From: Siphonodentalium dalli
Lineage: Eukaryota > Mollusca > Scaphopoda > Gadilida > Siphonodentaliidae
Reading direction: 5' to 3'
NCBI GenBank assembly: GCA_032622095.1
Contig: CP136061.1
Span: 187,680,369 to 187,744,368 of the forward strand
DNA length: 64,000 nt
Within the stretch, counting starts at the first letter, position 1; each line of letters begins with the position of its first letter. The notes beneath the pieces were generated by a model. The model was not told where the DNA came from, did no database searches, and saw only the letters and a program-made list of their open reading frames with translations. The translations under genes and the position numbers were made by a program. This document shows, piece after piece, positions 18,052 to 63,139 of this stretch.

Positions 18052-18329
18052 GCTGCAATGCCATTATTCTTGATTTATTTTTCAGTGTAATAACAAACGG
18101 GAGAGGAGGTACTCATAAGTGAGTCAGCACTTGTCCTCCAATCCCTTTGTCTGTATACAAATATATGTGTTATTTCCTATATATTATTGAATTTAGACAA
18201 ATAAATATGTTTAAAACTGTTAGTTGCAAACTTGTGTTGCGACAGTCCGAGATGAGTGCACTCTGTGTCCCCCTTAATCGCATCGTAGCCTATTTTCTAA
18301 GCTCGTGTCTGGCGGCTATGATCTTGAAC

Positions 18330-20422: not shown

Positions 20423-20691
20423 TTAAATATCAACAACATATGTGGCAGATTCGAATGTCACCTGCATTTTCACACCAGTTAATAAATATACCACATTTAA
20501 AAACAAATGGATGAAAATATAACTGTGGTGATCACCCGAAAGCAAATGCAAAGTCGAAACATGGCACACCTATATAACACTGATCGAATAAAACCATACA
20601 TAAGCCTCCATGTATTTCCATAGCAGTAACTCATGTACTAACGTTTGTTTGTTCAGTCAAGGTTTGACGTAGTTTCAATTATACACTAAGA
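20423..20691. repeat. 268-bp direct repeat, right copy
   Basis: Same sequence and orientation as 16394-16661. It begins precisely at the truncation point of the retroelement and ends ATACACTAAGA before unrelated sequence. About 3% divergence between the copies. Confidence 0.85.
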
Positions 20692-22843: not shown

Positions 22844-24203
22844 GTTACGTAGCGATTCTCCGAAGACCCATAACTCCGAAGGTCCGATTCTCCGAAGGTC
22901 CGATTCTCCGACGCCCCGATTCTCCGAAAGCCCATAACTCCGAAGTCCCGATGCTCCGAAATCCCATAACTCCGAAGACCCATAACTCCGAAAGCCCATA
23001 ACTCCGAATGCCTATAACTCCGAACGCCCATAACTCCGAAGGTCTATAACTCCGAAGGGCCGATTCTCCGAAGGTCCGATTCTCCGAAGATCATGTTTTA
23101 TCGCTTATTAAATAGTGTACAGTCCAGTGGCGGAGTCAATGACTTTTGGAGTTAAAATGGTGGTCTATTAATACCGTTTGGAATTTCACAATTCTTAGAG
23201 TGTATTGATAAGTATGGAATGCGCGTATGGTTATATTTTGTTCCGGGGATCCGGAATCCAGCTTCAATTTTACCATGGAATCCGGCGTCCAGCTTCAAAT
23301 TGACGTCTGGAATCCGGCGTACGGGTCCAAAATGGGTTGAATCCGGCGTACGAAAAGGGGGGAAGGGGCCCTCATATATTGGAAACGTTAACTATGTATT
23401 ATAATAAGGTGATATCTACACCATCAGTAGCGTGCGAAAAGCCTTAATTTTCCACAGAATGCTTAAATTTATGTAAGAAATACAATTATTTTGCCACAAT
23501 GTACGTCTTAATACAATTAATATGATTAAACTGTGCACATCCGACTGCATTGGGGTGATTTGATGCAATCAAGTTCATTTTATATATGAAAAAGGACAAG
23601 TTCTTCCCCGTTCACCCCTGTACATTTTACTCTGGCATCTCATGGGCCAACGTAACGTTATAGTATCTGGTGTATAGTCAGTGGCGGGCCAGGATTCCCA
23701 TTTAGGTGGGGGCAGTAGGAAAAGTTTGAATATTTTGATGCCCCATGAACGATTTCCGGGCGTTTACATGACATTGGACATGTTTTGGTAGGGGCCCATA
23801 TTGTCTGAAATAGCAAGTAGAGGTTTAATGGGGGCAGTAGGAATTTTGGGACCCCTTGGCTTCGCCACTGGACTGTACACTATTTAGTAAACGATAATAC
23901 CCCGATAAAACAAAATCTTCGGAGAATCGGAGAATCGGACCTTCGGAGTTATGGGCCGTCGGAAAATCGGGCCTTCGGAGTTATAGGTCTTCGGAGAATC
24001 GGCCCTTCGGAGTTATAGGTCTTCGGAGTTATAGGTCTTCGGAGAATCGGCCCTTCGGAGTTATGGGCTTTCGGAGAATCGGATCTTCGGAGTTATGGGC
24101 CGTCGGAGAATCGGGTCTTCGGAGTTGTGGGCCTTCGGAGAATCGGGTCTTCGGAGTTGTGGGCCTTCGTAGTAATAGGTCTTCGGAGAATCGGTCTGAC
24201 ACC
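22844..24203. mobile_element. Foldback element with inverted minisatellite arms, about 1.36 kb
   Basis: Left arm 22853-23089: tandem 18-19-bp units alternating CGATTCTCCGAAGG and CATAACTCCGAAGN. Right arm 23917-24194: the same units in reverse complement (CTTCGGAGAATCGG, CTTCGGAGTTATGG). Inside the arrays both arms share a unique segment of about 45 bp (TTTTATCG then ACTAAATAGTGTACAGTCCA and its complement). The outermost flanks AGTGCAATG (22835-22843) and AGTGCATTG (24204-24212) match at 8 of 9 positions and could be a target duplication. The architecture recalls Drosophila FB elements. No transposase frame lies in the central 0.75 kb. Short frames through the arrays are repeat artefacts. 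Confidence 0.75.
23679..23870. mobile_element. hAT-like MITE ends inside the foldback element
   Basis: CAGTGGCGGGCCAGG at the left end pairs with CCTTGGCTTCGCCACTG at the right. CAGTGGCG-type ends are common in hAT-like elements. A second CAGTGGCGGAG lies at 23125, so the outer pair 23125-23870 (746 bp) is an alternative reading. No 8-bp duplication is obvious for either version. Confidence 0.5.
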
Positions 24204-35962: not shown

Positions 35963-36145
35963 GATGAAAACCGACTGAATACATCTATAAATGGTCTTTC
36001 GAAAAGATGTGTGCCATTAATATGATTAGCGTATTTACCAGTATACAAACTGAAACGATCCAGAAACCAACGTCAATTGAAATATAGACAGAAACTTCGG
36101 ATTGTTATTTCTCTGGCGTTCCGTAGCAAAAGTTGAGAGATTTTA

Positions 36146-36591
36146 GGTTACACTGGTGTAAATGTTTTCCATAGGCCTCAGTGCTAACGTTTTAGCGTAT
36201 AGTGTTGGCAATATAAATGTTGGGTCCAAAATTTTCTTTAAATCTGAAAAATTGACATTTTGGGAAACTTTTTACACAAAACAATCGTGTCTGTCTAGCA
36301 GGGAATTCGCCTTTAAATCTTATGTTTTCGTAACTAGTGTCAGAACCGCATACAAAAATACAGTCATATTTTAGACCACACCAAAAAATTCAAACTTCAC
36401 TACAAAGGGTTAATTCCTGTGCCAATGGTTATTTTACCTATGGGAAATCATAGAGGTGTGATGATTTTTTTATGTGAAAAGCACACAAGGCTATTGACCA
36501 ATCAGGGCCCAGTGTCTATTTTATTCTCTCCTATATATTCCTCCCGCATCCGCTAGATGTCACTCGGAACCTTATTTACACCAGTATAACC
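36146..36591. mobile_element. B1, outermost left copy of the B element
   Basis: 446 bp. Left terminus GGTTACACTGGTGTAAAT; right terminus ATTTACACCAGTATAACC, with one change from the other copies (GTGTAACC). Lacks 5 bp present in the other copies near 36450. Its left flank (ATTTTA) is single-copy sequence, so this is the array edge. Confidence 0.85.
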
Positions 36592-37492
36592 TGAAGCGAT
36601 AGCCCGCTTTTTCGCGGAATAATTGTAACTCCCTACATTTCTTCAGAATTGCCCATCAATGGAAAAAATGTGTTCAAAAACAATATCACTTCTGTGGTTC
36701 TTTATTTATCACACACAATTTAACCCCACCCCCTTTAACAAATTATTCATCAAAAAAGCACAATTTTCCACCACCAGTCATGTTCAGGCCCCATTTTCAC
36801 TCAGTTTTAGGGATCTGGTGTTGCAAACTTGGATCAGCTATGGAAGACTGTTCAATATTCTTTCCATGAGAGAACTTCTGGTGATGTGAGGTCATTGAGT
36901 CCAGATCTGATCAGCTGAGCATCAAGCGCATGACTTTATCAGCACATTGAAGAATAAAATATGACATTTTCAGGTCTGCAAGGGTGATCCAAGACAACTG
37001 GATGTGGGTGTATATTGAATTAGTTGAATAAAGATATGCTCTCTTTGAATTGCTGAAGCATTTTCTTAAATGTGTCCAAGTTTTAGTGCTATTAACCTTC
37101 AAATGACCATACCCACCAGTGGAAATGACACACTTTTATGATATATATCTGTATATCACTGGCTATAAAATCCAAAATACTTGTTAAATTAGGTTCTTAT
37201 AACAATTGATATATGTGTCGTTGACATGCCCATGTTATGGGTCATTTGCATTATCATGTGACTATTACCACCTAGAAATTTTTGAAAATACCTTGAAAAA
37301 TTGGCATTTTTTATGAAAAATCTTACTATTATTTTGGCTGATGTAAGTGAAAGAAGGCATCAGCAGCAAGAATAGCCACATCAAGCATGAGATATTCATT
37401 GGACTGAAAGACCAGGCTCTGTAAAATGCATTAAAATGCTTTAAAGTGACTCCCAGGAATCAAAAATGATAAAAAGCTATTTTTTCCCTTTA

Positions 37493-37943
37493 GGTTACAC
37501 TGGTGTAAATGTTTTCCATAGGCCTCAGTGCTAACGTTTTAGCGTATAGTGTTGGCAATATAAATGTTGGGTCCAAAATTTTCTTTAAATCTGAAAAATT
37601 GACATTTTGGGAAACTTTTTACACAAAATAATCATGTCTGTCTAGCAGGGAATTCGCCTTTAAATCTTATGTTTTCGTAACTAGTGTCAGAACCGCATAC
37701 AAAAATACAGTCATATTTTAGACCACACCAAAAAATTCAAACTTCACTACAAAGGGTTAATTCCTGTGCCAATGGTTATTTTACCTATGGGAAATCATAG
37801 GGAAGAGGTGTGATGATTTTTTTATGTGAAAAGCACACAAGGCTATTGACCAATCAGGGCCCAGTGTCTATTTTATTCTCTCCTATATATTCCTCCCGCA
37901 TCCGCTAGATGTCACTCGGAACCTTATTTACACCAGTGTAACC
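37493..37943. mobile_element. B2, TIR element inside module A
   Basis: 451 bp with an 18-bp perfect terminal inverted repeat GGTTACACTGGTGTAAAT. Each terminus contains an imperfect palindrome TTACACTGGTGTAA. The left flank reads CCCTTTA and the right TAAAGCG, whereas direct A-A junctions read CCCTTAAAGCG. Net insertion is 454 bp, so a 3-bp target duplication (TAA, with one substituted copy TTA) fits. GG-ended TIRs with a TWA target would suit a PIF/Harbinger-like MITE. No coding capacity. Confidence 0.8.
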
Positions 37944-38845
37944 TAAAGCGATAGCCCGCTTTTTCGCGGAATAATTGTAACTCCCTACATTTCTTCAGAA
38001 TTGCCCATCAATGGAAAAAATGTGTTCAAAAACAATATCACTTCTGTGGTTCTTTATTTATCACACACAATTTAACCCCACCCCCTTTAACAAATTATTC
38101 ATCAAAAAAGCACAATTTTCCACCACCAGTCATGTTCAGGCCCCATTTTCACTCAGTTTTAGGGGTCTGGTGTTGCAAACTTGGATCAGCTATGGAAGAC
38201 TGTTCAATATTCTTTCCATGAGTGAACTTCTGGTGATGTGAGGTCATTGAGTCCAGATCTGATCAGCTGAGCATCAAGCGCATGACTTTATCAGCACATT
38301 GAAGAATAAAATATGACATTTTCAGGTCTGCAAGGGTGATCCAAGATAACTGGATGTGGGTGTATATTGAATTAGTTGAATAAAGATATGCTCTCTTTGA
38401 ATTGCTGAAGCATTTTCTTAAATGTGTCCAAGTTTTAGTGCTATTAACCTTCAAATGACCATACCCACCAGTGGAAATGACACACTTTTATGATATATAT
38501 CTGTATATCACTGGCTATAAAATACAAAATACTTGTTAAATTAGGTTCTTATAACAATTGATATATGTGTCGTTGACATGCCCATGTTATGGGTCATTTG
38601 CATTATCATGTGACTATTACCACCTTGAAAAATTTTGAAAATACCTTGAAAAATTGGCATTTTTTATGAAAAATCTTACTATTATTTTGGCTGATGTAAG
38701 TGAAAGAAGGCACCAGCAGCAAGAATAGCCACATCAAGCATGAGATATTCATTGGACTGAAAGACCAGGCTCTGTAAAATGCATTAAAATGCTTTAAAGT
38801 GACTCCCAGGAATCAAAAATGATAAAAAGCTATTTTTTCCCTTTA

Positions 38846-39296
38846 GGTTACACTGGTGTAAATGTTTTCCATAGGCCTCAGTGTTAACGTTTTAGCGTAT
38901 AGTGTTGGCAATATAAATGTTGGGTCCAAAATTTTCTTTAAATCTGAAAAATTGACCTTTTGGGAAACTTTTTACACAAAAAAATCATGTCTGTCTAGCA
39001 GGGAATTCGCCTTTAAATCTTATGTTTTCGTAACTAGTGTCAGAACCGCATACAAAAATACAGTCATATTTTAGACCACACCAAAAAATTCAAACTTCAC
39101 TACAAAGGGTTAATTCCTGTGCCAATGGTTATTTTACCTATGGGAAATCATAGGGAAGAGGTGTGATGATTTTTTTATGTGAAAAGCACACAAGGCTATT
39201 GACCAATCAGGGCCCAGTGTCTATTTTATTCTCTCCTATATATTCCTCCCGCATCCGCTAGATGTCACTCGGAACCTTATTTACACCAGTGTAACC
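38846..39296. mobile_element. B3, TIR element inside module A
   Basis: 451 bp, same ends as B2. Carries GTGTTAACG and TTGACCTTTT, variants shared only with B5 for the second. The right flank is TGAAGCG rather than TAAAGCG. Confidence 0.85.
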
Positions 39297-40194
39297 TGAA
39301 GCGATAGCCCGCTTTTTCGCGGAATAATTGTAACTCCCTACATTTCTTCAGAATTGCCCATCAATGGAAAAAATGTGTTCAAAAACAATATCACTTCTGT
39401 GGTTCTTTATTTATCACACACAATTTAACCCCACCCCCTTTAACAAATTATTCATCAAAAAAGCACAATTTTCCACCACCAGTCATGTTCAGGCCCCATT
39501 TTCACTCAGTTTTAGGGGTCTGGTGTTGCAAACTTGGATCAGCTATGGAAGACTGTTCAATATTCTTTCCATGAGAGAACTTCTGGTGATGTGAGGTCAT
39601 TGAGTCCAGATCTGATCAGCTGAGCATCAAGCGCATGACTTTATCAGCACATTGAAGAATAAAATATGACATTTTCAGGTCTGCAAGGGTGATCCAAGAC
39701 AACTGGATGTGGGTGTATATTGAATTAGTTGAATAAAGATATGCTCTCTTTGAATTGCTGAAGCATTTTCTTAAATGTGTCCAAGTTTTAGTGCTATTAA
39801 CCTTCAAATGACCATACCCACCAGTGGAAATGACACACTTTTATGATATATATCTGTATATCACTGGCTATAAAATCCAAAATACTTGTTAAATTAGGTT
39901 CTTATAACAATTGATATATGTGTCGTTGACATGCCCATGTTATGGGTCATTTGCATTATCATGTGACTATTACCACCTAGAAATTTTTGAAAATACCTTG
40001 AAAAATTGGCATTTTTTATGAAAAATCTTACTATTATTTTGGCTGATGTAAGTGAAAGAAGGCATCAGCAGCAAGAATAGCCACATCAAGCATGAGATAT
40101 TCATTGGACTGAAAGACCAGGCTCTGTAAAATGCATTAAAATGCTTTAAAGTGACTCCCAGGAATCAAAAATGATAAAAAGCTATTTTTTCCCT
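39297..40194. repeat. Module A3 (representative 898-bp A unit)
   Basis: Begins at the conserved GAAGCGATAGCCCGC (TAAAGCG in other copies), with a small hairpin CCGCTTTTTCGCGG. Ends AAAAAGCTATTTTTTCCCT. The two ends are weakly inverted-complementary (TAAAGCGATAGC-CTTTTT against TAAAGGGAAAAAATAGCTTTTT), so A could itself descend from a TIR element. No coding evidence. Confidence 0.8.
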
Positions 40195-41993
40195 TAAAGC
40201 GATAGCCCGCTTTTTCGCGGAATAATTGTAACTCCCTACATTTCTTCAGAATTGCCCATCAATGGAAAAAATGTGTTCAAAAACAATATCACTTCTGTGG
40301 TTCTTTATTTATCACACACAATTTAACCCCACCCCCTTTAACAAATTATTCATCAAAAAAGCACAATTTTCCACCACCAGTCATGTTCAGGCCCCATTTT
40401 CACTCAGTTTTAGGGGTCTGGTGTTGCAAACTTGGATCAGCTATGGAAGACTGTTCAATATTCTTTCCATGAGAGAACTTCTGGTGATGTGAGGTTATTG
40501 AGTCCAGATCTGATCAGCTGAGCATCAAGCGCATGACTTTATCAGCACATTGAAGAATAAAATATGACATTTTCAGGTCTGCAAGGGTGATCCAAGATAA
40601 CTGGATGTGGGTGTATATTGAATTAGTTGAATAAAGATATGCTCTCTTTGAATTGCTGAAGCATTTTCTTAAATGTGTCCAAGTTTTAGTGCTATTAACC
40701 TTCAAATGACCATACCCACCAGTGGAAATGACACACTTTTATGATATATATCTGTATATCACTGGCTATAAAATCCAAAATACTTGTTAAATTAGGTTCT
40801 TATAACAATTGATATATGTGTCGTTGACATGCCCATGTTATGGGTCATTTGCATTATCATGTGACTATTACCACCTAGAAATTTTTGAAAATACCTTGAA
40901 AAATTGGCATTTTTTATGAAAAATCTTACTATTATTTTGGCTGATGTAAGTGAAAGAAGGCATCAGCAGCAAGAATAGCCACATCAAGCATGAGATATTC
41001 ATTGGACTGAAAGACCAGGCTCTGTAAAATGCATTAAAATGCTTTAAAGTGACTCCCAGGAATCAAAAATGATAAAAAGCTATTTTTTCCCTTAAAGCGA
41101 TAGCCCGCTTTTTCGCGGAATAATTGTAACTCCCTACATTTCTTCAGAATTGCCCATCAATGGAAAAAATGTGTTCAAAAACAATATCACTTCTGTGGTT
41201 CTTTATTTATCACACACAATTTAACCCCACCCCCTTTAACAAATTATTCATCAAAAAAGCACAATTTTCCACCACCAGTCATGTTCAGGCCCCATTTTCA
41301 CTCAGTTTTAGGGGTCTGGTGTTGCAAACTTGGATCAGCTATGGAAGACTGTTCAATATTCTTTCCATGAGTGAACTTCTGGTGATGTGAGGTCATTGAG
41401 TCCAGATCTGATCAGCTGAGCATCAAGCGCATGACTTTATCAGCACATTGAAGAATAAAATATGACATTTTCAGGTCTGCAAGGGTGATCCAAGATAACT
41501 GGATGTGGGTGTATATTGAATTAGTTGAATAAAGATATGCTCTCTTTGAATTGCTGAAGCATTTTCTTAAATGTGTCCAAGTTTTAGTGCTATTAACCTT
41601 CAAATGACCATACCCACCAGTGGAAATGACACACTTTTATGATATATATCTGTATATCACTGGCTATAAAATCCAAAATACTTGTTAAATTAGGTTCTTA
41701 TAACAATTGATATATGTGTCGTTGACATGCCCATGTTATGGGTCATTTGCATTATCATGTGACTATTACCACCTAGAAATTTTTGAAAATACCTTGAAAA
41801 ATTGGCATTTTTTATGAAAAATCTTACTATTATTTTGGCTGATGTAAGTGAAAGAAGGCATCAGCAGCAAGAATAGCCACATCAAGCATGAGATATTCAT
41901 TGGACTGAAAGACCAGGCTCTGTAAAATGCATTAAAATGCTTTAAAGTGACTCCCAGGAATCAAAAATGATAAAAAGCTATTTTTTCCCTTTA

Positions 41994-42444
41994 GGTTACA
42001 CTGGTGTAAATGTTTTCCATAGGCCTCAGTGCTAACGTTTTAGCGTATAGTGTTGGCAATATAAATGTTGGGTCCAAAATTTTCTTTAAATCTGAAAAAT
42101 TGACATTTTGGGAAACTTTTTACACAAAATAATCATGTCTGTCTAGCAGGGAATTCGCCTTTAAATCTTATGTTTTCGTAACTAGTGTCAGAACCGCATA
42201 CAAAAATACAGTCATATTTTAGACCACACCAAAAAATTCAAACTTCACTACAAAGGGTTAATTCCTGTGCCAATGGTTATTTTACCTATGGGAAATCATA
42301 GGGAAGAGGTGTGATGATTTTTTTATGTGAAAAGCACACAAGGCTATTGACCAATCAGGGCCCAGTGTCTATTTTATTCTCTCCTATATATTCCTCCCGC
42401 ATCCGCTAGATGTCACTCGGAACCTTATTTACACCAGTGTAACC
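41994..42444. mobile_element. B4, TIR element inside module A
   Basis: 451 bp, same ends as B2, and shares with B2 the variant CAAAATAATCATG. It is the counterpart of B2 in the second higher-order unit. Confidence 0.85.
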
Positions 42445-43346
42445 TAAAGCGATAGCCCGCTTTTTCGCGGAATAATTGTAACTCCCTACATTTCTTCAGA
42501 ATTGCCCATCAATGGAAAAAATGTGTTCAAAAACAATATCACTTCTGTGGTTCTTTATTTATCACACACAATTTAACCCCACCCCCTTTAACAAATTATT
42601 CATCAAAAAAGCACAATTTTCCACCACCAGTCATGTTCAGGCCCCATTTTCACTCAGTTTTAGGGGTCTGGTGTTGCAAACTTGGATCAGCTATGGAAGA
42701 CTGTTCAATATTCTTTCCATGAGTGAACTTCTGGTGATGTGAGGTCATTGAGTCCAGATCTGATCAGCTGAGCATCAAGCGCATGACTTTATCAGCACAT
42801 TGAAGAATAAAATATGACATTTTCAGGTCTGCAAGGGTGATCCAAGATAACTGGATGTGGGTGTATATTGAATTAGTTGAATAAAGATATGCTCTCTTTG
42901 AATTGCTGAAGCATTTTCTTAAATGTGTCCAAGTTTTAGTGCTATTAACCTTCAAATGACCATACCCACCAGTGGAAATGACACACTTTTATGATATATA
43001 TCTGTATATCACTGGCTATAAAATACAAAATACTTGTTAAATTAGGTTCTTATAACAATTGATATATGTGTCGTTGACATGCCCATGTTATGGGTCATTT
43101 GCATTATCATGTGACTATTACCACCTTGAAAAATTTTGAAAATACCTTGAAAAATTGGCATTTTTTATGAAAAATCTTACTATTATTTTGGCTGATGTAA
43201 GTGAAAGAAGGCACCAGCAGCAAGAATAGCCACATCAAGCATGAGATATTCATTGGACTGAAAGACCAGGCTCTGTAAAATGCATTAAAATGCTTTAAAG
43301 TGACTCCCAGGAATCAAAAATGATAAAAAGCTATTTTTTCCCTTTA

Positions 43347-43797
43347 GGTTACACTGGTGTAAATGTTTTCCATAGGCCTCAGTGTTAACGTTTTAGCGTA
43401 TAGTGTTGGCAATATAAATGTTGGGTCCAAAATTTTCTTTAAATCTGAAAAATTGACCTTTTGGGAAACTTTTTACACAAAAAAATCATGTCTGTCTAGC
43501 AGGGAATTCGCCTTTAAATCTTATGTTTTCGTAACTAGTGTCAGAACCGCATACAAAAATACAGTCATATTTTAGACCACACCAAAAAATTCAAACTTCA
43601 CTACAAAGGGTTAATTCCTGTGCCAATGGTTATTTTACCTATGGGAAATCATAGGGAAGAGGTGTGATGATTTTTTTATGTGAAAAGCACACAAGGCTAT
43701 TGACCAATCAGGGCCCAGTGTCTATTTTATTCTCTCCTATATATTCCTCCCGCATCCGCTAGATGTCACTCGGAACCTTATTTACACCAGTGTAACC
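43347..43797. mobile_element. B5, TIR element inside module A
   Basis: 451 bp; the counterpart of B3 in the second higher-order unit, with the same GTGTTAACG and TTGACCTTTT variants and the TGAAGCG right flank. Confidence 0.85.
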
Positions 43798-45593
43798 TGA
43801 AGCGATAGCCCGCTTTTTCGCGGAATAATTGTAACTCCCTACATTTCTTCAGAATTGCGCATCAATGGAAAAAATGTGTTCAAAAACAATATCACTTCTG
43901 TGGTTCTTTATTTATCACACACAATTTAACCCCACCCCCTTTAACAAATTATTCATCAAAAAAGCACAATTTTCCACCACCAGTCATGTTCAGGCCCCAT
44001 TTTCACTCAGTTTTAGGGGTCTGGTGTTGCAAACTTGGATCAGCTATGGAAGACTGTTCAATATTCTTTCCATGAGAGAACTTCTGGTGATGTGAGGTCA
44101 TTGAGTCCAGATCTGATCAGCTGAGCATCAAGCGCATGACTTTATCAGCACATTGAAGAATAAAATATGACATTTTCAGGTCTGCAAGGGTGATCCAAGA
44201 CAACTGGATGTGGGTGTATATTGAATTAGTTGAATAAAGATATGCTCTCTTTGAATTGCTGAAGCATTTTCTTAAATGTGTCCAAGTTTTAGTGCTATTA
44301 ACCTTCAAATGACCATACCCACCAGTGGAAATGACACACTTTTATGATATATATCTGTATATCACTGGCTATAAAATCCAAAATACTTGTTAAATTAGGT
44401 TCTTATAACAATTGATATATGTGTCGTTGACATGCCCATGTTATGGGTCATTTGCATTATCATGTGACTATTACCACCTAGAAATTTTTGAAAATACCTT
44501 GAAAAATTGGCATTTTTTATGAAAAATCTTACTATTATTTTGGCTGATGTAAGTGAAAGAAGGCATCAGCAGCAAGAATAGCCACATCAAGCATGAGATA
44601 TTCATTGGACTGAAAGACCAGGCTCTGTAAAATGCATTAAAATGCTTTAAAGTGACTCCCAGGAATCAAAAATGATAAAAAGCTATTTTTTCCCTTAAAG
44701 CGATAGCCCGCTTTTTCGCGGAATAATTGTAACTCCCTACATTTCTTCAGAATTGCCCATCAATGGAAAAAATGTGTTCAAAAACAATATCACTTCTGTG
44801 GTTCTTTATTTATCACACACAATTTAACCCCACCCCCTTTAACAAATTATTCATCAAAAAAGCACAATTTTCCACCACCAGTCATGTTCAGGCCCCATTT
44901 TCACTCAGTTTTAGGGGTCTGGTGTTGCAAACTTGGATCAGCTATGGAAGACTGTTCAATATTCTTTCCATGAGAGAACTTCTGGTGATGTGAGGTTATT
45001 GAGTCCAGATCTGATCAGCTGAGCATCAAGCGCATGACTTTATCAGCACATTGAAGAATAAAATATGACATTTTCAGGTCTGCAAGGGTGATCCAAGATA
45101 ACTGGATGTGGGTGTATATTGAATTAGTTGAATAAAGATATGCTCTCTTTGAATTGCTGAAGCATTTTCTTAAATGTGTCCAAGTTTTAGTGCTATTAAC
45201 CTTCAAATGACCATACCCACCAGTGGAAATGACACACTTTTATGATATATATCTGTATATCACTGGCTATAAAATCCAAAATACTTGTTAAATTAGGTTC
45301 TTATAACAATTGATATATGTGTCGTTGACATGCCCATGTTATGGGTCATTTGCATTATCATGTGACTATTACCACCTAGAAATTTTTGAAAATACCTTGA
45401 AAAATTGGCATTTTTTATGAAAAATCTTACTATTATTTTGGCTGATGTAAGTGAAAGAAGGCATCAGCAGCAAGAATAGCCACATCAAGCATGAGATATT
45501 CATTGGACTGAAAGACCAGGCTCTGTAAAATGCATTAAAATGCTTTAAAGTGACTCCCAGGAATCAAAAATGATAAAAAGCTATTTTTTCCCT

Positions 45594-47394
45594 TAAAGCG
45601 ATAGCCCGCTTTTTCGCGGAATAATTGTAACTCCCTACATTTCTTCAGAATTGCCCATCAATGGAAAAAATGTGTTCAAAAACAATATCACTTCTGTGGT
45701 TCTTTATTTATCACACACAATTTAACCCCACCCCCTTTAACAAATTATTCATCAAAAAAGCACAATTTTCCACCACCAGTCATGTTCAGGCCCCATTTTC
45801 ACTCAGTTTTAGGGGTCTGGTGTTGCAAACTTGGATCAGCTATGGAAGACTGTTCAATATTCTTTCCATGAGAGAACTTCTGGTGATGTGAGGTTATTGA
45901 GTCCAGATCTGATCAGCTGAGCATCAAGCGCATGACTTTATCAGCACATTGAAGAATAAAATATGACATTTTCAGGTCTGCAAGGGTGATCCAAGATAAC
46001 TGGATGTGGGTGTATATTGAATTAGTTGAATAAAGATATGCTCTCTTTGAATTGCTGAAGCATTTTCTTAAATGTGTCCAAGTTTTAGTGCTATTAACCT
46101 TCAAATGACCATACCCACCAGTGGAAATGACACACTTTTATGATATATATCTGTATATCACTGGCTATAAAATCCAAAATACTTGTTAAATTAGGTTCTT
46201 ATAACAATTGATATATGTGTCGTTGACATGCCCATGTTATGGGTCATTTGCATTATCATGTGACTATTACCACCTTGAAAAAATTTGAAAATACCTTGAA
46301 AAATTGGCATTTTTTATGAAAAATCTTACTATTATTTTGGCTGATGTAAGTGAAAGAAGGCACCAGCAGCAAGAATAGCCACATCAAGCATGAGATATTC
46401 ATTGGACTGAAAGACCAGGCTCTGTAAAATGCATTAAAATGCTTTAAAGTGACTCCCAGGAATCAAAAATGATAAAAAGCTATTTTTTCCCTTAAAGCGA
46501 TAGCCCGCTTTTTCGCGGAATAATTGTAACTCCCTACATTTCTTCAGAATTGCCCATCAATGGAAAAAATGTGTTCAAAAACAATATCACTTCTGTGGTT
46601 CTTTATTTATCACACACAATTTAACCCCACCCCCTTTAACAAATTATTCATCAAAAAAGCACAATTTTCCACCACCAGTCATGTTCAGGCCCCATTTTCA
46701 CTCAGTTTTAGGGGTCTGGTGTTGCAAACTTGGATCAGCTATGGAAGACTGTTCAATATTCTTTCCATGAGAGAACTTCTGGTGATGTGAGGTTATTGAG
46801 TCCAGATCTGATCAGCTGAGCATCAAGCGCATGACTTTATCAGCACATTGAAGAATAAAATATGACATTTTCAGGTCTGCAAGGGTGATCCAAGATAACT
46901 GGATGTGGGTGTATATTGAATTAGTTGAATAAAGATATGCTCTCTTTGAATTGCTGAAGCATTTTCTTAAATGTGTCCAAGTTTTAGTGCTATTAACCTT
47001 CAAATGACCATACCCACCAGTGGAAATGACACACTTTTATGATATATATCTGTATATCACTGGCTATAAAATCCAAAATACTTGTTAAATTAGGTTCTTA
47101 TAACAATTGATATATGTGTCGTTGACATGCCCATGTTATGGGTCATTTGCATTATCATGTGACTATTACCACCTTGAAAAAATTTGAAAATACCTTGAAA
47201 AATTGGCATTTTTTATGAAAAATCTTACTATTATTTTGGCTGATGTAAGTGAAAGAAGGCACCAGCAGCAAGAATAGCCACATCAAGCATGAGATATTCA
47301 TTGGACTGAAAGACCAGGCTCTGTAAAATGCATTAAAATGCTTTAAAGTGACTCCCAGGAATCAAAAATGATAAAAAGCTATTTTTTCCCTTTA
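45594..47394. repeat. Terminal A9-A10 of the array
   Basis: Two A modules (899 and 902 bp) that break the 4,501-bp periodicity. Both carry GAGGTTATTG and ACCTTGAAAAAATTTG, so A10 looks like a local duplicate of A9 or the reverse. Confidence 0.85.
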
Positions 47395-47845
47395 GGTTAC
47401 ACTGGTGTAAATGTTTTCCATAGGCCTCAGTGTTAACGTTTTAGCGTATAGTGTTGGCAATATGAATGTTGGGTCCAAAATTTTCTTTAAATCTGAAAAA
47501 TTGACATTTTGGGAAACTTTTTACACAAAAAAATCATGTCTGTCTAGCAGGGAATTCGCCTTTAAATCTTATGTTTTCGTAACTAGTGTCAGAACCGCAT
47601 ACAAAAATACAGTCATATTTTAGACCACACCAAAAAATTCAAACTTCACTACAAAGGGTTAATTCCTGTGCCAATGGTTATTTTACCTATGGGAAATCAT
47701 AGGGAAGAGGTGTGATGATTTTTTTATGTGAAAAGCACACAAGGCTATTGACCAATCAGGGCCCAGTGTCTATTTTATTCTCTCCTATATATTCCTCCCG
47801 CATCCGCTAGATGTCACTCGGAACCTTATTTACACCAGTGTAACC
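47395..47845. mobile_element. B6, outermost right copy of the B element
   Basis: 451 bp, standard termini, and a private variant ATGAATGTTGG. It is followed directly by single-copy AATAGTGCC, so the array ends exactly at the B terminus. Confidence 0.85.
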
Positions 47846-48033
47846 AATAGTGCCATGTGTGACCTGACATTTGAACATGTTATTGTCAGAAATTCACTCT
47901 GCGTGATTATGACAGTCTGCGAAATGGTAATGGTATAGCATTCATGTGAATATTGTTATCTTAGACGAAGCATGGTGTTGGCTGGTAAGCTTGATGAAGA
48001 AAGTTAACATGCTTATATTGACAATTATATATG

Positions 48034-48168
48034 AATAAATAGAGGAGCTACAACAGAGTCCCCAGTTTATAGCGGAATTTATAAAACGAGTCCAGTAAAT
48101 TAGACCTAATTTACTTGACGAATTTTTAAAAATTCCGCTATAAACTCGTTGTAGCTCCTCTATTTATT
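48034..48168. mobile_element. Snap-back MITE-like element, 135 bp
   Basis: AATAAATAGAGGAGCTACAA at the left and its complement TTGTAGCTCCTCTATTTATT at the right. Internal arms GTTTATAGCGGAATTT / AAATTCCGCTATAAAC and AGTAAATTAG / TAATTTACT. TA dinucleotides flank GAGGAGC on both sides, consistent with a TA target. No coding capacity. Confidence 0.8.
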
Positions 48169-50542
48169 ACATGATCCAAAACCTCGATAAAACATACTTA
48201 ATTCAAGAAATGGAACGTGAAACTAACATCTGCTTCTATAAGGCCTGCGATGACGTTTCACGTAACTATGCGTTGTTGACCCGCGTAAAGAAATGGTCCC
48301 AGATAAATAAAGACACATTGACGTATTTAATGGCTTATATATTTAATGGAATAACTTTTCAAACTCTTTACCCATTAAAGTTTGTTGGAATAATACTGGA
48401 ACCCAAAGTATTTTGAGACGTAGCGTACGGAATGTAAACAGACGACAAACCGGTCACCTGGCACTATTTCCTGTTATGCAAATAACTTTGCACATCACAT
48501 TTTATAGAATGAGTTTATTGAATGGAATAATATTAAGATAATATAATAAAGTAATTTAACGACGCTTATATCCACCTATAACTGCAAGAAACCTGGTAAA
48601 CCATCACTGTCTGTAAATCTCAACTTCTGTTACATACAATTTCTACGGAAAACCGTGATCGGCGCGAAATTTGAAAATGATAAAAAACAGCTTTTCCGCA
48701 AGGAAGAATGAGGGGGACTTTTGTGAATGTTGGCCTTGGATCCATCATCAGTGAGGAAACCATAAACAGTTTTAGAGTAGTTGATCTGCTAAAGTTTCAA
48801 GCTGCTGTGATGAATTCAACCCCAACAATGCTGCATCTTTTGAAAGACGATATTTGACCGCCTAAACGTCCCACAAATGTGCATTCGGCTGCACTCGATG
48901 CATCAGCTGTGGCTCTTATTGTATATTATATGCAGTAGATGAAGTCTACAAAGATATACCGTCGGACAAGGGGGGGGGGGGGGGCAACATCTCTTTACTC
49001 CGCGGTGTCGTGACACTTGACTTTTGAGCGCCATCACGCTGTTATTTTTCTATTATAACGAGACAATGAACACCGATATTACAAAATGGCAGGGCATTTA
49101 ATAAGTATCACCTCGCGACTTATAGGGCTAATCCACCGACAACCCACTGAGCACACACCAATCGGCACCCATGCAGACAGGGGCTAAGTCACAGTACACG
49201 CCTTATAGTGTCTTGCGTTTGATGTGTCAGTCCAAATTAGCTGCATTATAAGTTTAGATTTGGGCCATTTGTCATTTCTGGATGTGGACAAGATCCACGG
49301 CGACAAAAATAACAGAATATAAAACGATCGCATGCCTGACAATGATCAAGGTGTTTAGCTAACCAGAACCACGGCCATGCAGTTGCACCTTAATGCATCA
49401 CAACAATCTAAGCGTTCACATTGTTTATGGTTTAAACTTATTTATTTGCCTCAATGTTAATTACAGATATCTGACGATTGGAATGGCGGTGATATTAACA
49501 AGGAACTCTGTTTATATTCCACGCTGGTCAAAGATCGGGATCTGGATATCCTAGATTATAATGTATGATACAAGTCCTTTGTGACGTATACAATCCCCTT
49601 ATAAGTATTTAACGGACATGGCTCATTGGAAGTTCCAAATGTTGTGTTCGTAATTTGGAAGGCGGTATAAGATATGTTGATAAATACACGAAGAATCGAT
49701 ATACGGGCTTCATACTCTCTGAGAACTACTTGCCAAGGTCACATAAATTTTCCAGCTGATTTTGCCTAATCCGCAGTACACCTTACTACCGGGCCATTAT
49801 TATATGTTTGATTCTTAATCAATAAATTGACTGACATTTCCACTCTATAGTCCTTAGATCATAGAGTAAGCTTTACATTTGTGTTTGTGCGATTGGGAGA
49901 TGCAATTCACGTGCGATCACAACATTAGCTTCGTGGGCAAAGCTTTATTTTCCAACTAATGTACATCACGTTGGCCCAAAATGCCTGTGTTTCTGCACTA
50001 TACAGAGACTATTGTGCAAAACGACTGCATTTAACGAGAGTACATATATACGTGTATCTGATAATCCATCGATATCATATTATCCTACTATTTCTTGAAT
50101 AAGAAGGAACATATAATAACGAACAAAGCAGAAGACATATCCATTCAGGTTCACGTGAATTCGACAATGGTGACGTATCCGCCGAATTTGAAATCGACAT
50201 GCGTTCGGGCGGTATTTTATGGGTGGAATTATGAAATTAACATGATGAAAGTGACAGTGAAATTGACAATGATTTGCTTCAGGTTCGCCATCAACCGAAG
50301 TGCTCCCTAGCGTTACCATCAATAACATTATTATTTGGCTAATTTCAGTAATATTCTCCCAATAACACATATTGGTCTCAGCATTTAAAATTCTTTGATA
50401 TAGATCGTTTATATTCTGCAATAATTTGTACACAAGGGACGGATTCTTATGTTTTATTGCGTTTTTAAACTTCGAGGTGGCGAAATCTCGGTTTGTTTAC
50501 ATTATGAAAGTTTGAGTCCGTAATTGGAATCAGAATCTGAAT
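48169..50542. other. Non-coding stretch with a G run and a dispersed repeat
   Basis: G run at 48970-48984. Segment 49616-49745 (GTTCCAAATGTTGT, AATTTGGAAGG, GGTATAAGATATGTTGA) recurs at 51608-51735. Segment near 48845 (ATATTTGACCGCCTAAACG) resembles a word of the duplicated segments at 56.7 and 57.8 kb. Frames at 48171-48416 and 50080-50433 have no motif. Confidence 0.5.
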
Positions 50543-50551
50543 CTGGATTAC

Positions 50552-50807
50552 GGTAGCGGGGTAATGTCACAAGAGCTATACTCGTCCTTGACCTCAATAA
50601 ATGGTATACTCGTAGGGCGCGCATCTATAATCTCAAATCGACGCAATTCCACCCGCATGTGCAATTTGACTTATATATCAAGATGTTACACCCACTTTGG
50701 TGTTCTAGAAACCACCCGAAAAAGACCCGTTAATTAGTTGAATATAACGTGACTGCAAATTCTGAGGTGAAGGTCGAGTATAGCTCTTGCGACATTACCT
50801 CTCTACC
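50552..50807. mobile_element. MITE with a 9-bp target duplication, 256 bp
   Basis: Terminal inverted repeats of about 50 bp. The left reads GGTAGCGGGGTAATGTC then CAAGAGCTATACTCG and CCTTGACCTCA; the right is its complement with few mismatches, ending CGACATTACCTCTCTACC. The direct 9-bp duplication CTGGATTAC lies on both sides (50543-50551 and 50808-50816). Duplications of 8-10 bp with long TIRs suit Mutator-like elements. Class assignment is inference; boundaries are firm. Confidence 0.85.
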
Positions 50808-53870: not shown

Positions 53871-55075
53871 ATCATGGGTTGGGGTCCGTCGTGCGTGTGT
53901 GCGTCCGTCTGTCCATCTGTCCATCCGTCAACAATCCCTCATCCGATCATCACCAAACTTCATATGGATCCTCGGTCAGCCATTTGTGATTTCAAATTTA
54001 ATCCATCGGCACAGCCTGCAGCCCGCATTTATTGAAGAATTTTTTTGAAAATTTACAGGCATGTTTATGATCACCTCTAGGTGGGAGCTATCGAATTTGC
54101 ACGATTTTCCATGAAAAACATGACCGCCGGCAGCTATCTTGGATTTTACTCTTTGCATGACTAAATCATTTGGCATATCCTACAGCCAACATCCCTCATC
54201 CGATCGTCACCATACTTCATATGGATCTTTAGTAACCTCTAGATTGGAGCCATCGATTATTTCCAAAATTATTTTAAACCATGGCTGCCAGCAGCCATCT
54301 TGGATTTTACTCTTTGCATGACTAAATCCTTCGGCACACCCTACATCTCACATCCCTCATCCGATCATCACCAAACTCCACACGGCTCTTCCGGGTGACC
54401 TCTAGATTGGTGCCATCGATTATTTATGAAATTCGTTATAAAACATGGCGTCATCTTGGGTTTCAAATTTGAACCATCGGCACACCCTGCAGCCCGCATA
54501 TATCGAAGAAATGTTTTGTAAATTCACAGGCATGATTAGGATCAACTAATTCATTTGGCACACCATACAGGTCACATCTCTCACCCGATCATCACCAAAC
54601 TTTATATGGATCTTCTAAATTGGTGATCTCTAGATGGGACCCATCGATTATTTCCGAAATCCGTAGAAAAATATAGCTGCCAGCGGACATCTTGAATTTT
54701 ATTCTTTTCATGACTAAATCCTTCGGCACATCCTACAGGCCACACCTCTCATCAAATCGTCACCAAACTTCACATGGATCTTCGGGGTGACCTCTAGATG
54801 GAAGCCGTCGATTATTTACGAAATTCGTTATAAAACATGGCTGCCATCTTGAATTTGACTATTTGCATGACTAAATCCTTCGGCACACCCTACATACCAC
54901 ATTTCTCATCCAATCGTCACCAAACTTCATATGGATCTTCGGGGTGACCCCCAGATGAGAGCCCTTGATTATTTACGAAATCCGTTATAACACATGGCTG
55001 CCAGCAGCCATCTTGGATATCAAATTTTAATCCATCGGCACACCCTGCAGCCCATATCTATTGGTGAAATGGAAA
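53871..55075. repeat. Degenerate tandem repeat, units about 155-250 bp
   Basis: Opens with a GTCCGTCTGTCCATCTGTCC minisatellite. Then come six or so irregular units, each containing CATCCGATCATCACCAAACT, GGATCTTC-GGGTGACCTCTAGAT, CCATCGATTATTT, CATGGCTGCCAGCAGCCATC and TTGCATGACTAAATCCTTCG in that order, with partial units and deletions. The layout parallels the 33.6-34.4-kb repeat (a GTCCGTCC block followed by units with an accepted ACCAAACTT-like word), hinting at related element types. Confidence 0.8.
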
Positions 55076-55397
55076 TAATTTCATTTACTCAATACAAGCC
55101 CTCTACTGCAACTTTTTGACTTTCCTTCATTCTTCATAATTATATTCATTGCTCAATAAAAGAGAAGAAATAGCCCCTAAAGCTACAGTGTACCATTGAC
55201 ACTTTCATTTTATGACAACTCACCCTGCCAAAACGTGCATGACAGAAAGACACAAAGCTACCGAAGATCAACTTATGGTGCGGCGCGATTCTAGGGCGAA
55301 AGTCTAAAGCCCTAATCATCTTTAGTAAAACGGGAATCTTAATCAACGCCACACGGGCACCACAAAGACAAATAAGACGAATTAATAAGCATTTAAA

Positions 55398-55895
55398 TTA
55401 AAGGGACACAAAGTACTCGCAGTGGGTAAATATGAAAACATAAGTCTGTAAAAACATCACCACCAAGAAGAATATGGAGAAATATATTACATTCTTATAT
55501 TCATTATTGATAGTTCTCCAATAACTAAATTTCGCGTGCTGAATCCATTGTTATGTAAACAAAACTGTTGCAGTGTTATGCCAACTAACATGTGTTGTAA
55601 GTTCAAATATTTTATTCTGAATATGATTTTCAGAATATTTTTCAATGCTTTGACATTTTCCAATGTTTACCGTCTAGTTTTGATTAAACTTTGGTATCTT
55701 ATTGGACTAATCTAACTGTATCGGTAAATCCACTTTATCATTAATGTTTACATAACACTGTTTTTTACATGCGAAATCTCGTTATGAGAGAGTTATTAAA
55801 AATGAAAATAAGTCAATCTATTTTTCATGTACTTGTTGGTGATAGTTACAGACTTATTATGCATGAACCCAATTCGAAGGTCTGTAGTCCCTTGA
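55398..55895. mobile_element. TTAA long-TIR element, 498 bp
   Basis: Left end TTAAAGGGACACAAAGTACT; right end complement of AAGGGACTACAGACCTTCGA. The inverted arms run for over 150 bp with divergence (AGTCTGTAA, ATGAAAAN, AATAACT, AATTTCGC). The left target is TTAA and the right TTGA, a single decay change. Same family as 8555 and 57186. No transposase frame. Confidence 0.75.
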
Positions 55896-56263
55896 AGTAT
55901 CATCATAGAGGGGCTCTTCAATTATCACCGATAATGGGTAATGATAATCAAATTAAAGGCTCTTCGTAATATTGGTGATCCTTTGTATATTTGGTTCCTT
56001 ACCAAAGTCTTTTGAATGCCGATAAACTGGCCATATGTAGACAACAAATTACTGATCGTACACATATAATTATTTTCCGTTATTTTCCATTTCTTTATTA
56101 CCTCCAGAATTGGAGAATAGAACAAAAATATAGACAATATGGAGACAATTCAATTCAAACACATATCATGTCTGAATAGACGAAGAAAAAAAACATAAAA
56201 CACACAAATAGATTGACTACAATGTTGGATTAGACATTGCCGTCAATGTGATCAGTTGCCAAG

Positions 56264-56332
56264 CAAACGTAACCTCAGATGAGAAACAAACGTAACATCA
56301 GATGCGAAACAAACGTAACCTCAGATGAGAAG
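56264..56332. repeat. 22-23-bp minisatellite, three copies
   Basis: The unit AAACAAACGTAACCTCAGATG repeats at 56264, 56286 and 56309 with one or two substitutions. It abuts the duplicated segment that starts near 56319. Confidence 0.85.
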
Positions 56333-58279
56333 CCTTTAATACGTCTATGCCGTTGAAACAGTATTGTCAATCAAAATTAGTCACTTCTATTATCCTTCAC
56401 AATTGAGAACCTGGCGAAGTCCCACATATAAATTTAATTAATGAATGTTCCCGACAATCGGATTATCCAGAGTTGCGAAAAGGACAAGATTCACAATTAG
56501 CTCTCATCTTATATATGTCAACTGGAAACATGTTCTCTTAATTGGTTGTGCCTCTTGTATGTCCTAGCTTTCTATTTAACGAATATTCCACTTATGATCT
56601 TGAGGACCTGAAGTGACATAACTACATTACGTGATTGGTACATTTGCTGTTGTTCTTTAATTTGTGTGTACCTGATCAAAATTGAAAATATGCCAAAACT
56701 GTCTATTTGAAAAACGATATCTGACCATCAAGACCTCCGATGTGTGAGTGTTTATAATGTCAGCCTGTTCTCGTGAAAATAAGCACAATACAGTCTTATT
56801 TCGAATGTCGCATTTTAAGCCCATATAGAGCGTATTTGGAGTCCCCCGTATACTACGAGTTAATGAATGTATGATGGTAAAACTATCTTCCCTTGCCCTA
56901 AACCAATCCTGAACATTCCGCATTGCTTTTGTGTGTTTAGTTTGAATTTGTTGTCACTTTTGTGTTGAACATTAATGCATGTGCGAACTATCATCTTTGT
57001 CCTGGTGATAGGAGCTATACAACTAAATTATTATAGCTTGTGCCCCGATCCCCATGCTTCCTACATATTTAACGAATGTACCACTTATCTGCTTGATGAC
57101 CTGGCTGGGCATAACACCAACACATGATTGCTTTAATTTTATTTGCCACTGTTGCAACAATTGACTGATAGAAATGCTTTCAATGTTAAAGGGACAAAAG
57201 GGCAATCGAAGTGAGTTCATGCGAAATAACATAAACATATGTAAAAGATATATCAACACATACAATCCATGAAAATTCGATTGACGTTGTTCATATTTCC
57301 TTTAATAATAACTCTGCAATAATGAAGTTTCGCATGGTGCCAGTCACTGTTATGTAAACATTACTATTACAGAGGAATAACCGATAAAAGTCAAATTAAT
57401 ACCAAATAAAATACCAAAGTTTAATTAAAACTTGACAGTAATACCGAAAAAGGTAAAAACATTGAACAATATTCTGAAAATCATATTTGGACTTACTATA
57501 TGATTAACGATGTTTGTTGAGAAACCACTGAAACATTTTTGTTTACGTAACAATGGATTCACGACGCGAAATTTAGTTATTGGGGAGCTATCAATAATGA
57601 GTATAGGAATACAGTTAGTCTAGTTCTCTATTTTCTTCTTAGTGGTGATGTTTTTACATACTTTATAATTTTGCACATGTATCCACTACGAGTGCTCTGG
57701 GTCCTTTAATGGATCAGATAACCATAAACGCTCTTCATCATAGGCGATTCTAAACTTTTTTGTGCGCCTGATAAAAATATAGTAAAAAAAAAACGATCTT
57801 TGACAGCCGATATCTCACCACCTAAACCTCCCATGATTTGAGCTTATATAATGCATGTCTGATCTCGGTGTTTTCCGGGAAAGAAAACGTACAATTAAAT
57901 AGTAGTGTTCTGGTGTAACTTCGGATGAAGCCCTTTAATACTGCTGTGCCATTGAACGATCATATCAAGCACAATTGGTCACTTGAGTTCCGTCATAATT
58001 GAGAACACGATGAAGTCCTACAGATACATCGAGTTAATGAATGTACTCATCAAAGAGGGTTCCGACAATCTGATTATCCAGGGTTACGAAAAAGACAAGA
58101 TCCACAATTAGCTCTCATCTTATACTTGCCACCTGGAAAAATGACCAATGTTTTCTACATTGTTTGCGCCGATTGTATGTCTCAGCTTCCTATTTAACGA
58201 ATATTCCACTTATGATTTCGAGGACATGGAGTGACATAACTACATTGCATGATTGCTACATTTGCTATTGTCGCGCGTC
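56319..58279. repeat. Duplicated segments, two long copies and one partial
   Basis: 56319-56656 and 57931-58279 share AAGCC-TTTAATAC, ATTGAGAAC, CCGACAATCNGATTATCCAG, AAGATNCACAATTAGCTCTC and CGAATATTCCACTTATGAT. A third partial copy, 57028-57150, has TATTTAACGAATGTACCACT. A companion segment (CCGATATCTCACCACCTAAA near 57820) recurs near 56720 in altered form. The TTAA element at 57186-57709 was inserted into this block. Confidence 0.7.
57186..57709. mobile_element. TTAA long-TIR element, 524 bp
   Basis: TTAA at both ends (57186-57189 and 57706-57709). Left AAGGGACAAAAGGGCAATCG; right complement of AAAGGACCCAGAGCACTCGT. Long inverted arms, with the right arm closely matching the left arms of the 55.4- and 8.6-kb members (ACATCACCACTAAGAAGAA, TTATTGATAGCTCCCCAATA). 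No transposase frame. Confidence 0.8.
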
Positions 58280-61586: not shown

Positions 61587-61609
61587 AACATTCAGATGAG
61601 TAGCGGACA

Positions 61610-63139
61610 ATGAACCAACCAGACGACAACAAAAGCCCGAACATGACACACAAGGACTCGGATATGGATCGTTTCGCACCAATACCAACGAATGGTAACG
61701 AGAAGAAGAAGAGCCTGGCCTTTTCGATTGACAAAATCATGGAATATGATTCTAAGAAGAAGGAGAGGGAGGATTTCATTGAAAATGAGAGTCGAGAAGA
61801 AACACATTCCGTGGAAAAACAAAACTTCTACAACATGTGGAACTCTTCGTCGATGTTGTCTGCATACCAGGCGGCCGCGTACAATAACATGTTATACGGC
61901 AGTGAAATGCAGAAACACTACACGACGCTCAACATACCTTCGAAATACAAGGACGTTCCTTCTCAGCTGAATCTACTTCACCCTGCGTTCATGTACAATC
62001 GCGTGCCATCGGAAGATTACCATACTCATCTTCTTCGGAATCTCTCTCTACTTCAGCAAAATTCGGCAGCATTCAGATCACCAAGCATGAATTCTGCATT
62101 CGAAAAATTCAAGCACACTACTCCTCCAGAGCAGGCTTCGTTTCCAAGTCCGAAATTCGACCCAACCGTAAGTAAAGATTTGACCATCTATAAAACACCG
62201 GAACAGGAGGAGGAATCAGACAACGCACATATAGACGTGGACGCGTTCTCGGATAATGACGATGATATGAACTCAAAAACGGAACATGACAGTGACAGTG
62301 ACGATATTAAAAACTCTAGTTTGGACACTTCACATGAGAGCGATATCGTTGAAGATATTACATCAGCTAATAAATTGAAGAAAGTTGCACCAAAAAGCCA
62401 AAAGACATTCACCTGCCCCGAATGCGGAAAAGTGTTTAATGCGCATTATAACTTGACCAGACACATGCCGGTTCACACGGGAGCTCGACCTTTCGTTTGT
62501 AAAATTTGTGGAAAAGGTTTCCGTCAGGCTAGCACTCTCTGCCGACACAAAATCATACACACGTCTGACAAACCTCATAAGTGTGGCACGTGTGGTAAGG
62601 CATTCAATCGAAGTTCCACCCTGAACACGCACATGCGCATTCATGCCGGATATAAACCTTTCGTCTGCGAATTTTGCGGTAAAGGATTTCACCAAAAAGG
62701 GAACTATAAAAATCACAAACTGACACACAGCACCGAGAAGCAGTTTAAGTGCAATATTTGTAATAAAGCGTTTCACCAGATTTACAACCTAACATTTCAC
62801 ATGCACACACATAACGAAAAGAAACCGTTTACTTGTGCAATGTGTGGTAAAGGATTTTGTAGGAACTTTGACTTGAAGAAACACATGCGCAAACTGCACG
62901 ATGGGATGGAAATGGCACCGACGTCACCTACGAGGTCGAGTCCAGCGGGTTCAAATCCGATGACGCCGAAATCGAACTTGTTCTCGCCGGTGAACATGGC
63001 TACAAGTCCGAGTTCATATTTGTCACGGTCTGCTCTGTATCCACAGTCGCCAATGGGCTGTCATCGGGGCATGTTTTCGCCGTACATGCTGACGGCTGGC
63101 ACCAATGGACTCCTTCATAAACTATCATCTATGATGTAA
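61610..63139 (+). CDS. fezf: FEZ-family zinc-finger transcriptional repressor
   Basis: 509 residues in one uninterrupted frame. An Eh1 repression motif, [10 protein letters not shown], at residues 35-44 is the Groucho/TLE-binding signature of the family. Residues 198-250 are strongly acidic and serine-rich. Six consecutive C2H2 fingers follow: 267-289, 295-317, 323-345, 351-373, 379-401 and 407-430, with all zinc ligands present (for example C269, C272, H285, H289). The last ends in the family-typical [17 protein letters not shown]. The tail (431-509) is Ser/Pro-rich. Known FEZF/Erm proteins act in the nucleus in forebrain and neural progenitor patterning; the same role is inferred here. The start is supported by an in-frame TAG at 61601-61603 and A at -3. 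Length fits the family. FEZF1 and FEZF2 of vertebrates arose from one ancestral gene, so no number is given. No intron interrupts the frame. Confidence 0.95.

Follow-up and report, generated by a model that had tools for sequence, protein, structure and literature searches.

A two-module tandem array in the scaphopod Siphonodentalium dalli: probable composite movement of blocks bounded by a MITE-like element

The stretch of DNA analysed here, called the window, comprises 64,000 nucleotides of the scaphopod mollusc Siphonodentalium dalli (C1:187680369-187744368, in an assembly of 2.23 Gb and 9 contigs). Between positions 36146 and 47845 it contains a tandem array built of two modules, a 451-bp element with inverted ends (B) and a segment of 0.9 kb (A). 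An earlier note, made from the letters of the window alone, had raised the possibility that the whole array moved as a composite unit by means of its outermost B ends. Comparison across the genome indicates that B is probably a non-autonomous inverted-repeat DNA transposon, and that strings of the form B-(A-B)n move as composite units. For the family, composite movement is supported by the recurrence of such blocks, by target duplications at 22 of the 28 with B at both edges and by one empty paralogous site; the block in the window is a different case, taken up below.

Blocks bounded by B and their target duplications

A set of 34 blocks was assembled from 34 fetched stretches and the window, after two overlapping pairs of stretches (L016/L017 and L035/L036, paired by hand) had been merged and one stretch had been split. 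The stretches derive from two lists of similarity matches, with 40 candidates scored out of 322 in one list and out of 245 in the other, and because of this origin the sample favours young, multi-unit blocks. In the counts of rows given below (A-B and B-A joins, homopolymers, B ends and distances) some rows are repeated from the two overlapping pairs, while the comparison of left and right B copies is free of repeats.

B is the outermost module on both sides in 28 of the 34 blocks, and an ordinary satellite with arbitrary edges is ruled out by this. In 25 of these 28 the alignment of B extends fully to its final base at either edge; in L019, L026 and L029 it stops 1–6 letters short, on one side or at one end. 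Two further blocks (L015 and L033) run off the fetched stretch. The earlier note had proposed a search for other loci with blocks of B-A-B type and target duplications, and such loci are found: 22 of the 28 blocks with B at both edges are flanked by a perfect 4-bp duplication. When the right flanks were shuffled, the mean number of identical pairs was 2.3 and the maximum in 20,000 trials was 10, against the 22 observed. The arrangement of a composite transposon or macrotransposon, in which two like elements enclose other DNA within one duplication, is therefore present in these 22 blocks and absent from the window block.

Solo copies of B carry duplications of the same length. Four candidates were read at their ends only; three have no adjoining A, and each of these is flanked on both sides by the same four letters (GGCA, TGTA or GATA), while the fourth adjoins A. 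Over the 22 blocks and three solo copies, the first letter of the duplication is T in 17 of 25 cases and the last is A in 23 of 25; the duplications are of TWWA type. The inner context TTTA-B-TAAA had suggested insertion in the manner of Tc1/mariner elements, with a TA duplication, but this idea was dropped because the outer duplications are 4 bp long. Helitrons and the related HINEs insert without target duplication, and the 4-bp duplications exclude the family from that class.

One block is matched by an empty site, which lies within the window. When the flanks of L024 (a B-A-B block on contig C6, with the duplication ATAA) are joined, they match window positions 50358–50552 on the plus strand in 174 of 198 columns, and the match runs through the join. 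The site is a copy of the dispersed repeat that harbours L024, and has a single TTAT where L024 has its duplication. L024 is the sole such case among the 25 blocks tested in this way.

The modules, their joins and their distribution

Six B and ten A copies, 98–100% alike, make up the window array, which runs B A B A B AAA B A B AAAA B. No two copies of A differ in more than 13 of 902 alignment columns, and no two copies of B in more than 10 of 451. All of its features are given on the plus strand. The left outer element, B1 (36146–36591), is 446 bp long instead of 451, owing to a 5-bp deletion, and has one mismatch in its right inverted end. It is followed by A1 (36592–37492), B2 (37493–37943; 451 bp, with perfect 18-bp inverted ends), A2 (37944–38845), B3 (38846–39296) and the directly joined A3, A4 and A5 (39297–41993), where both joins, near 40195 and 41093, read CCCTTAAAGCG. 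Next come B4 (41994–42444), A6 (42445–43346) and B5 (43347–43797), which are identical to B2, A2 and B3, respectively. Four directly joined copies, A7 to A10 (43798–47394), with three further CCCTTAAAGCG joins, lead to the right outer element, B6 (47395–47845). A has a length of about 898 bp plus a few letters at the joints. In the middle of the array is a higher-order duplication of 4501 bp, in which B2 A2 B3 A3 A4 A5 corresponds to B4 A6 B5 A7 A8 A9; self-comparison at an offset of 4501 gives 197–200 identical letters per 200 bases from 36600 to 41599. No further copies of A or B were found elsewhere in the window at the sensitivity of the self-comparison used.

Several statements of the earlier note can be set against this layout. 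Its placing of the array edges on B termini is exact, at 36146 and 47845. The two modules that it described are both present; strict alternation between them is not, given the runs of three and four A copies, in which five of the nine joins between successive A copies have no intervening B. The 18-bp terminal inverted repeats that it called perfect are so in five of the six B copies, B1 being the exception.

B is a high-copy MITE-like element (MITE, miniature inverted-repeat transposable element), with a length of 451 bp, inverted ends of 18 bp (GGTTACACTGGTGTAAAT) and 4-bp duplications of the type described above. Of 102 aligned rows, the left end is exact in 90 and the right end in 92, and the three solo copies without adjoining A all have 4-bp duplications. 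The element is short and lacks a transposase frame, its longest stop-to-stop frame being 72 codons; A also lacks long open frames. In 20 B copies from divergent loci the ends are better kept than the interior, with changes at 8 of 358 and 4 of 353 positions in the two ends, compared with 333 of 8,235 inside. A short sequence inside B, CCGCTAGATGTCACT (window positions 36550–36564, with counterparts in other B copies), may resemble the core motif of CTCF.

The exact 18-bp end of B has 12,551 matches in the genome (6,256 plus 6,295), and the exact A-B join, CCCTTTA-B, has 4,018 (1,909 and 2,109). If half of the 12,551 are left ends, an estimated 2,250 or so left ends lack this exact A end before them. 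A is a 0.9-kb segment enclosed by direct copies of B, and stretches fetched from each of the 9 contigs show this same pairing of modules, with A between B copies. A sample less biased than the fetched blocks is offered by C1 from 8 to 61 Mb, where a tally by eye, in which mutated joins are missed, gives at least 29 places with A-B joins: 20 with one join, six with two, one with three and two with four. Viral contigs were scanned for the 18-bp end of B and for one 24-mer of A, with 0 matches each.

Much longer arrays are present near both ends of C1. One of about 81 kb (C1:445299-526469) is bounded by B termini and has no target duplication (TCAA/TAAA, in the orientation of B); at the other end, A-A joins span about 190 kb (C1:275.55–275.74 Mb of 276.87 Mb). 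The continuity of both was judged from spacing. These arrays have the long, homogeneous tandem structure of satellite DNA, and are plausible donors of blocks.

B is preceded by CCCTTTA in 70 of 71 A-B rows (CTCTTTA in the other), and followed by TAAAGCG in most of 76 B-A rows, a few having TGAAGCG or other variants. Where two A copies meet directly, the letters between CCC and GCG (GCA in a join of L038) vary. Among 16 distinct A-A joins at five loci, TTAAA occurs seven times, TAAA three times, and TTTTAAA, TTTAAA and TTTA twice each. The genome has 397 matches to the A-A join pattern (242 and 155), and among the matches listed, nearly all of which lie in one large array, there is an additional type, TTTAA. 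All six types correspond to TTTA+TAAA minus one to four letters, with no letter of B remaining, and may be read as scars of B excision. Like the solo copies with duplications, they might reflect independent movement of B, a trait of the flanking elements of composite transposons. Where one array has several joins of the same type, such as the five TTAAA joins in the window, the likeliest account is a single event that unequal exchange then multiplied. Homopolymer slippage is disfavoured as the source of the joins, since a comparison of 76 A rows shows variation in only 4 of 58 homopolymer runs, one of which varies in eight rows. Insertion of B into a pre-existing array of A is ruled out, as the inner flanks TTTA and TAAA do not form a 4-bp duplication.

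The two outer B copies of one block resemble each other more than they resemble those of other blocks. For 27 blocks (L038, with an incomplete B, was left out) the left and right copies differ by 0.73%, compared with 2.06% between blocks (0 of 10,000 permutations). In a core of 23 blocks, from which L026, L028, L029 and L040b were also removed, the values are 0.35% and 0.63% (0 of 10,000 permutations), and both halves of B agree. No lineages of B specific to the left or right side are apparent by eye. Furthermore, distances between loci in A and in B are correlated (r 0.93 for 33 loci, 0 of 2,000 permutations; 0.57 for 29 core loci, 4 of 2,000 permutations). The likeness within blocks, together with this correlation, therefore indicates homogeneous A-B donors and a common history of A and B.

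Other irregularities of the family were seen in single stretches. In L030 (6739–7061) and L033 (2738–3056) a copy of A is split by an insert of about 320 bp, which may be another mobile element. In L031 (C2:130221500-130228000) there is a period of 2499 bp, consisting of B, a truncated A and about 1.3 kb of other DNA that includes the left flank of B; here a host site that contains a damaged block has undergone segmental tandem duplication.

Proposed mechanism and rival explanations

A terminal-inverted-repeat (TIR) transposon, the ends of which are used singly or paired across A-B units, is the most economical account of the family. A transposase supplied in trans would probably pair the left end of a given B with a right end that belongs either to that B or to one further along, and solo B, B-A-B, B-A-B-A-B and longer strings would all be inserted with a 4-bp duplication. 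A may have originated as ordinary DNA caught between two insertions of B, at TAAA and TTTA sites. Unequal exchange would build and homogenise long arrays, which could then act as donors, and inner B copies might at times excise, giving A-A joins. The window block would be a member of this family, the original junctions of which have been altered by recombination or deletion. A more far-reaching version can be put forward tentatively, and is rather less secure than composite movement itself: a DNA-transposon family with a life cycle like that of long terminal repeat (LTR) elements, in which a homogenised satellite carries a full pair of ends in every A-B unit, strings of any whole number of units are launched by transposase, satellite arrays are reseeded elsewhere, and inner elements are trimmed by excision.

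Several observations weigh against composite movement of B-bounded strings. On one side, 4 of the 34 blocks (L025, L027, L031 and L032) end inside A, which is the case that the earlier note had named as contrary to its proposal; these may be truncated or rearranged copies. Six of the 28 (the window block, L019, L022, L026, L029 and L041) have no duplication, and the empty site matched to L024 is paralogous, being another copy of the repeat and no allele of that locus. Excision is deduced from the A-A joins and was not observed. A search for an autonomous partner gave 36 matches to the 18-mer of the TIR followed by C or T, and 55 to 16-mers in which the following letter differed. None of these ends faced another at close spacing, in a search blind to partners that share fewer than 16 terminal letters, or the first 19 letters of B. 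Scans of the genome for variant ends did not reveal a source of transposase for B. Under any of the readings, blocks could also grow from B-A-B by unequal exchange after insertion and, because this could give multi-unit blocks, the insertion of whole multi-unit strings is unproven. Finally, identical B copies within a block are equally expected of an LTR element.

The outer tetranucleotides of the window block, TTTA on the left (36142–36145, plus strand) and AATA on the right (47846–47849, plus strand), do not form a target duplication, as the earlier note had correctly reported. The terminal copies of the block, B1 and B6, differ by 1.12%, compared with a mean of 0.35% in the core blocks. When the two flanks of the block were put together and used as a query, 25 matches were obtained, namely both flanks themselves and 23 other places; none of the 25 runs through the joined flanks, and all 23 other places correspond to the right flank. 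The right flank holds this dispersed repeat, with its 23 other listed places, and an adjoining self-inverted stretch of 135 bp (window 47880–48168). One copy of the repeat on C2 aligns up to the edge of B (78% identity), and the letters upstream of that point in this one copy are unlike the left flank of the window array; by this copy, the left flank is not a continuation of the right-flank repeat. There is a weak indication that an original junction has disappeared, for instance when two blocks recombined, and the duplication is perhaps missing through rearrangement. Movement as one unit is not demonstrated for this particular array.

The most serious competitor, though an unlikely one, is a non-autonomous retroelement of LTR, TRIM (terminal-repeat retrotransposon in miniature) or retrozyme type, in which B would act as the terminal repeat and A as the internal region, with solo B corresponding to a solo LTR and B-A-B-A-B to a tandem LTR element. 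Direct terminal repeats around a frame-poor middle, 4-bp duplications, and solo and tandem forms are all in keeping with such an element, as is the near-identity of the terminal repeats within a block. Tandems with duplications are known from LTR elements and retrozymes, according to two reports (PMC11899658, PMC4918200). The ends of B, however, are GG..CC instead of TG..CA, and its inverted ends are as long as 18 bp. In the one copy of A inspected, there is no TGG in the first 20 bases on either strand, as would suit a primer-binding site, and no polypurine tract in the last 15 bases, where the purine fraction is 0.13 and 0.40 on the two strands. A hammerhead was found neither at the Rfam threshold in the window nor among six weak matches in 36100–40300, and the retrozyme was rejected on these window searches. 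The A-A joins, which lack B exactly and have varied short remnants, would also be left unexplained. On these four grounds (ends of B, primer and purine tracts, hammerhead, A-A joins) the retroelement is given a low probability. Somewhat less probable again is that solo B inserts by transposition and that A-B units join later, by homologous recombination of circular or ectopic A-B DNA with the resident B. Solo copies do exist, and B edges and duplications, including those around B-A-B, are predicted equally well. Such a history would be expected to make the left and right B of a block mosaics of resident and incoming B, as different as between blocks, whereas 0.35% and 0.63% are seen in the 23 core blocks, and the correlation of A and B distances (0.93, or 0.57 in the core) also speaks against it; gene conversion inside a block afterwards could mask the mosaic signal.

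Two explanations confined to the window have very little probability. If two neighbouring B insertions had enclosed a single-copy A at this site, and unequal crossing-over had done the rest, B edges would follow by necessity and no outer duplication would be expected, as is the case here. The same A is found between the same B on all 9 contigs, and the exact A-B join recurs 4,018 times, and the A-B unit was therefore not assembled at the window locus. Local duplication may nevertheless fit the remote origin of the family, as A is bounded by TAAA and TTTA, both of which also occur among the duplications. Similarly improbable is an assembly artefact, in which the array or its edges would be misassembled repeats. 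The near-exact higher-order repeat of 4501 bp would suit this, and the array is seen in assembled sequence alone; edges at B termini, however, recur at many independent sites with site-specific duplications.

Neighbouring sequences and comparison with known systems

Other repeats and coding sequences are present in the window outside the array. At 16394–20691, direct repeats of 269 bp, 97% alike, lie at both ends of a decayed element on the minus strand that resembles a long interspersed nuclear element, with Pfam matches to an endonuclease and a reverse transcriptase; the Pfam search covered only four frames outside the array. At 22853–24197, about 700 bp lie between two arrays of opposite orientation, each formed by a 16-bp repeat and about 290 bp long (79% alike), which gives the whole a foldback-type appearance. 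Downstream of the array, tandem units of about 157–161 bp (77–86% alike), followed by longer inverted and direct repeats, occupy 53929–55071 and 55397–58271. About 14 kb from the array end, at 61604–63139, is a frame of 511 codons with C2H2 zinc fingers (Pfam), presumably a Fezf-like gene.

In maize, the ends of two separate Ac-Ds elements can move the DNA between them as a macrotransposon, with 8-bp duplications (PMC4270019). The use of the ends of two elements together and the presence of target duplications are shared with the A-B blocks. The maize cases are individual alleles, whereas strings of whole A-B units form a family that is scattered through the genome with duplications of 4 bp and is also arranged in satellite-like arrays. 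The coral CMITE, with a TTAA target, likewise has full MITE-type elements in tandem arrays, attributed by the authors to replication slippage (PMC2872659). The target here is of TWWA type, and transposition of whole tandem blocks with duplications is not described in the available part of the coral report.

Satellite repeats inside transposons are known from the pearl/HINE elements of bivalves and from Tetris of Drosophila (PMC5139131, PMC8268682, PMC7492417, PMC4079207). There, as here, satellite-like repeats in variable number are dispersed by mobile elements and are related to longer arrays. In those elements the repeats lie between one pair of ends, whereas each A-B unit has a full pair; HINEs, as far as these sources describe them, also lack target duplications, while A-B blocks have 4-bp ones. 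Further satellites inside or derived from transposons (PMC12628747, PMC9659126) and satellite-like elements of schistosomes (PMC8490949) have been described. TRIM and tandem LTR elements and plant retrozymes resemble the A-B family in having direct repeats around a non-coding middle, short duplications, and solo or tandem forms (PMC11899658, PMC4918200). The A-B family differs in its long inverted ends and excision-like joins, and in the lack of TG..CA ends, primer site, purine tract and hammerhead. In the literature searched, mostly openly readable papers and these in their available parts, no account was met of satellite blocks, made of several whole units, that have MITEs at their edges and target duplications around them, nor of satellites in which every unit has both transposon ends and strings of whole units are mobile.

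How satellite repeats come to occupy new sites on chromosomes is still debated. Much of the relevant evidence is found together in this genome: long arrays, scattered whole-unit blocks flanked by target duplications, solo copies of B and scar-like A-A joins. Block movement by the outermost transposon ends may be one route by which satellite DNA spreads. If the family does have the LTR-like life cycle proposed above, the spread of a satellite would be a matter of ordinary transposition, a proposal that is directly testable.

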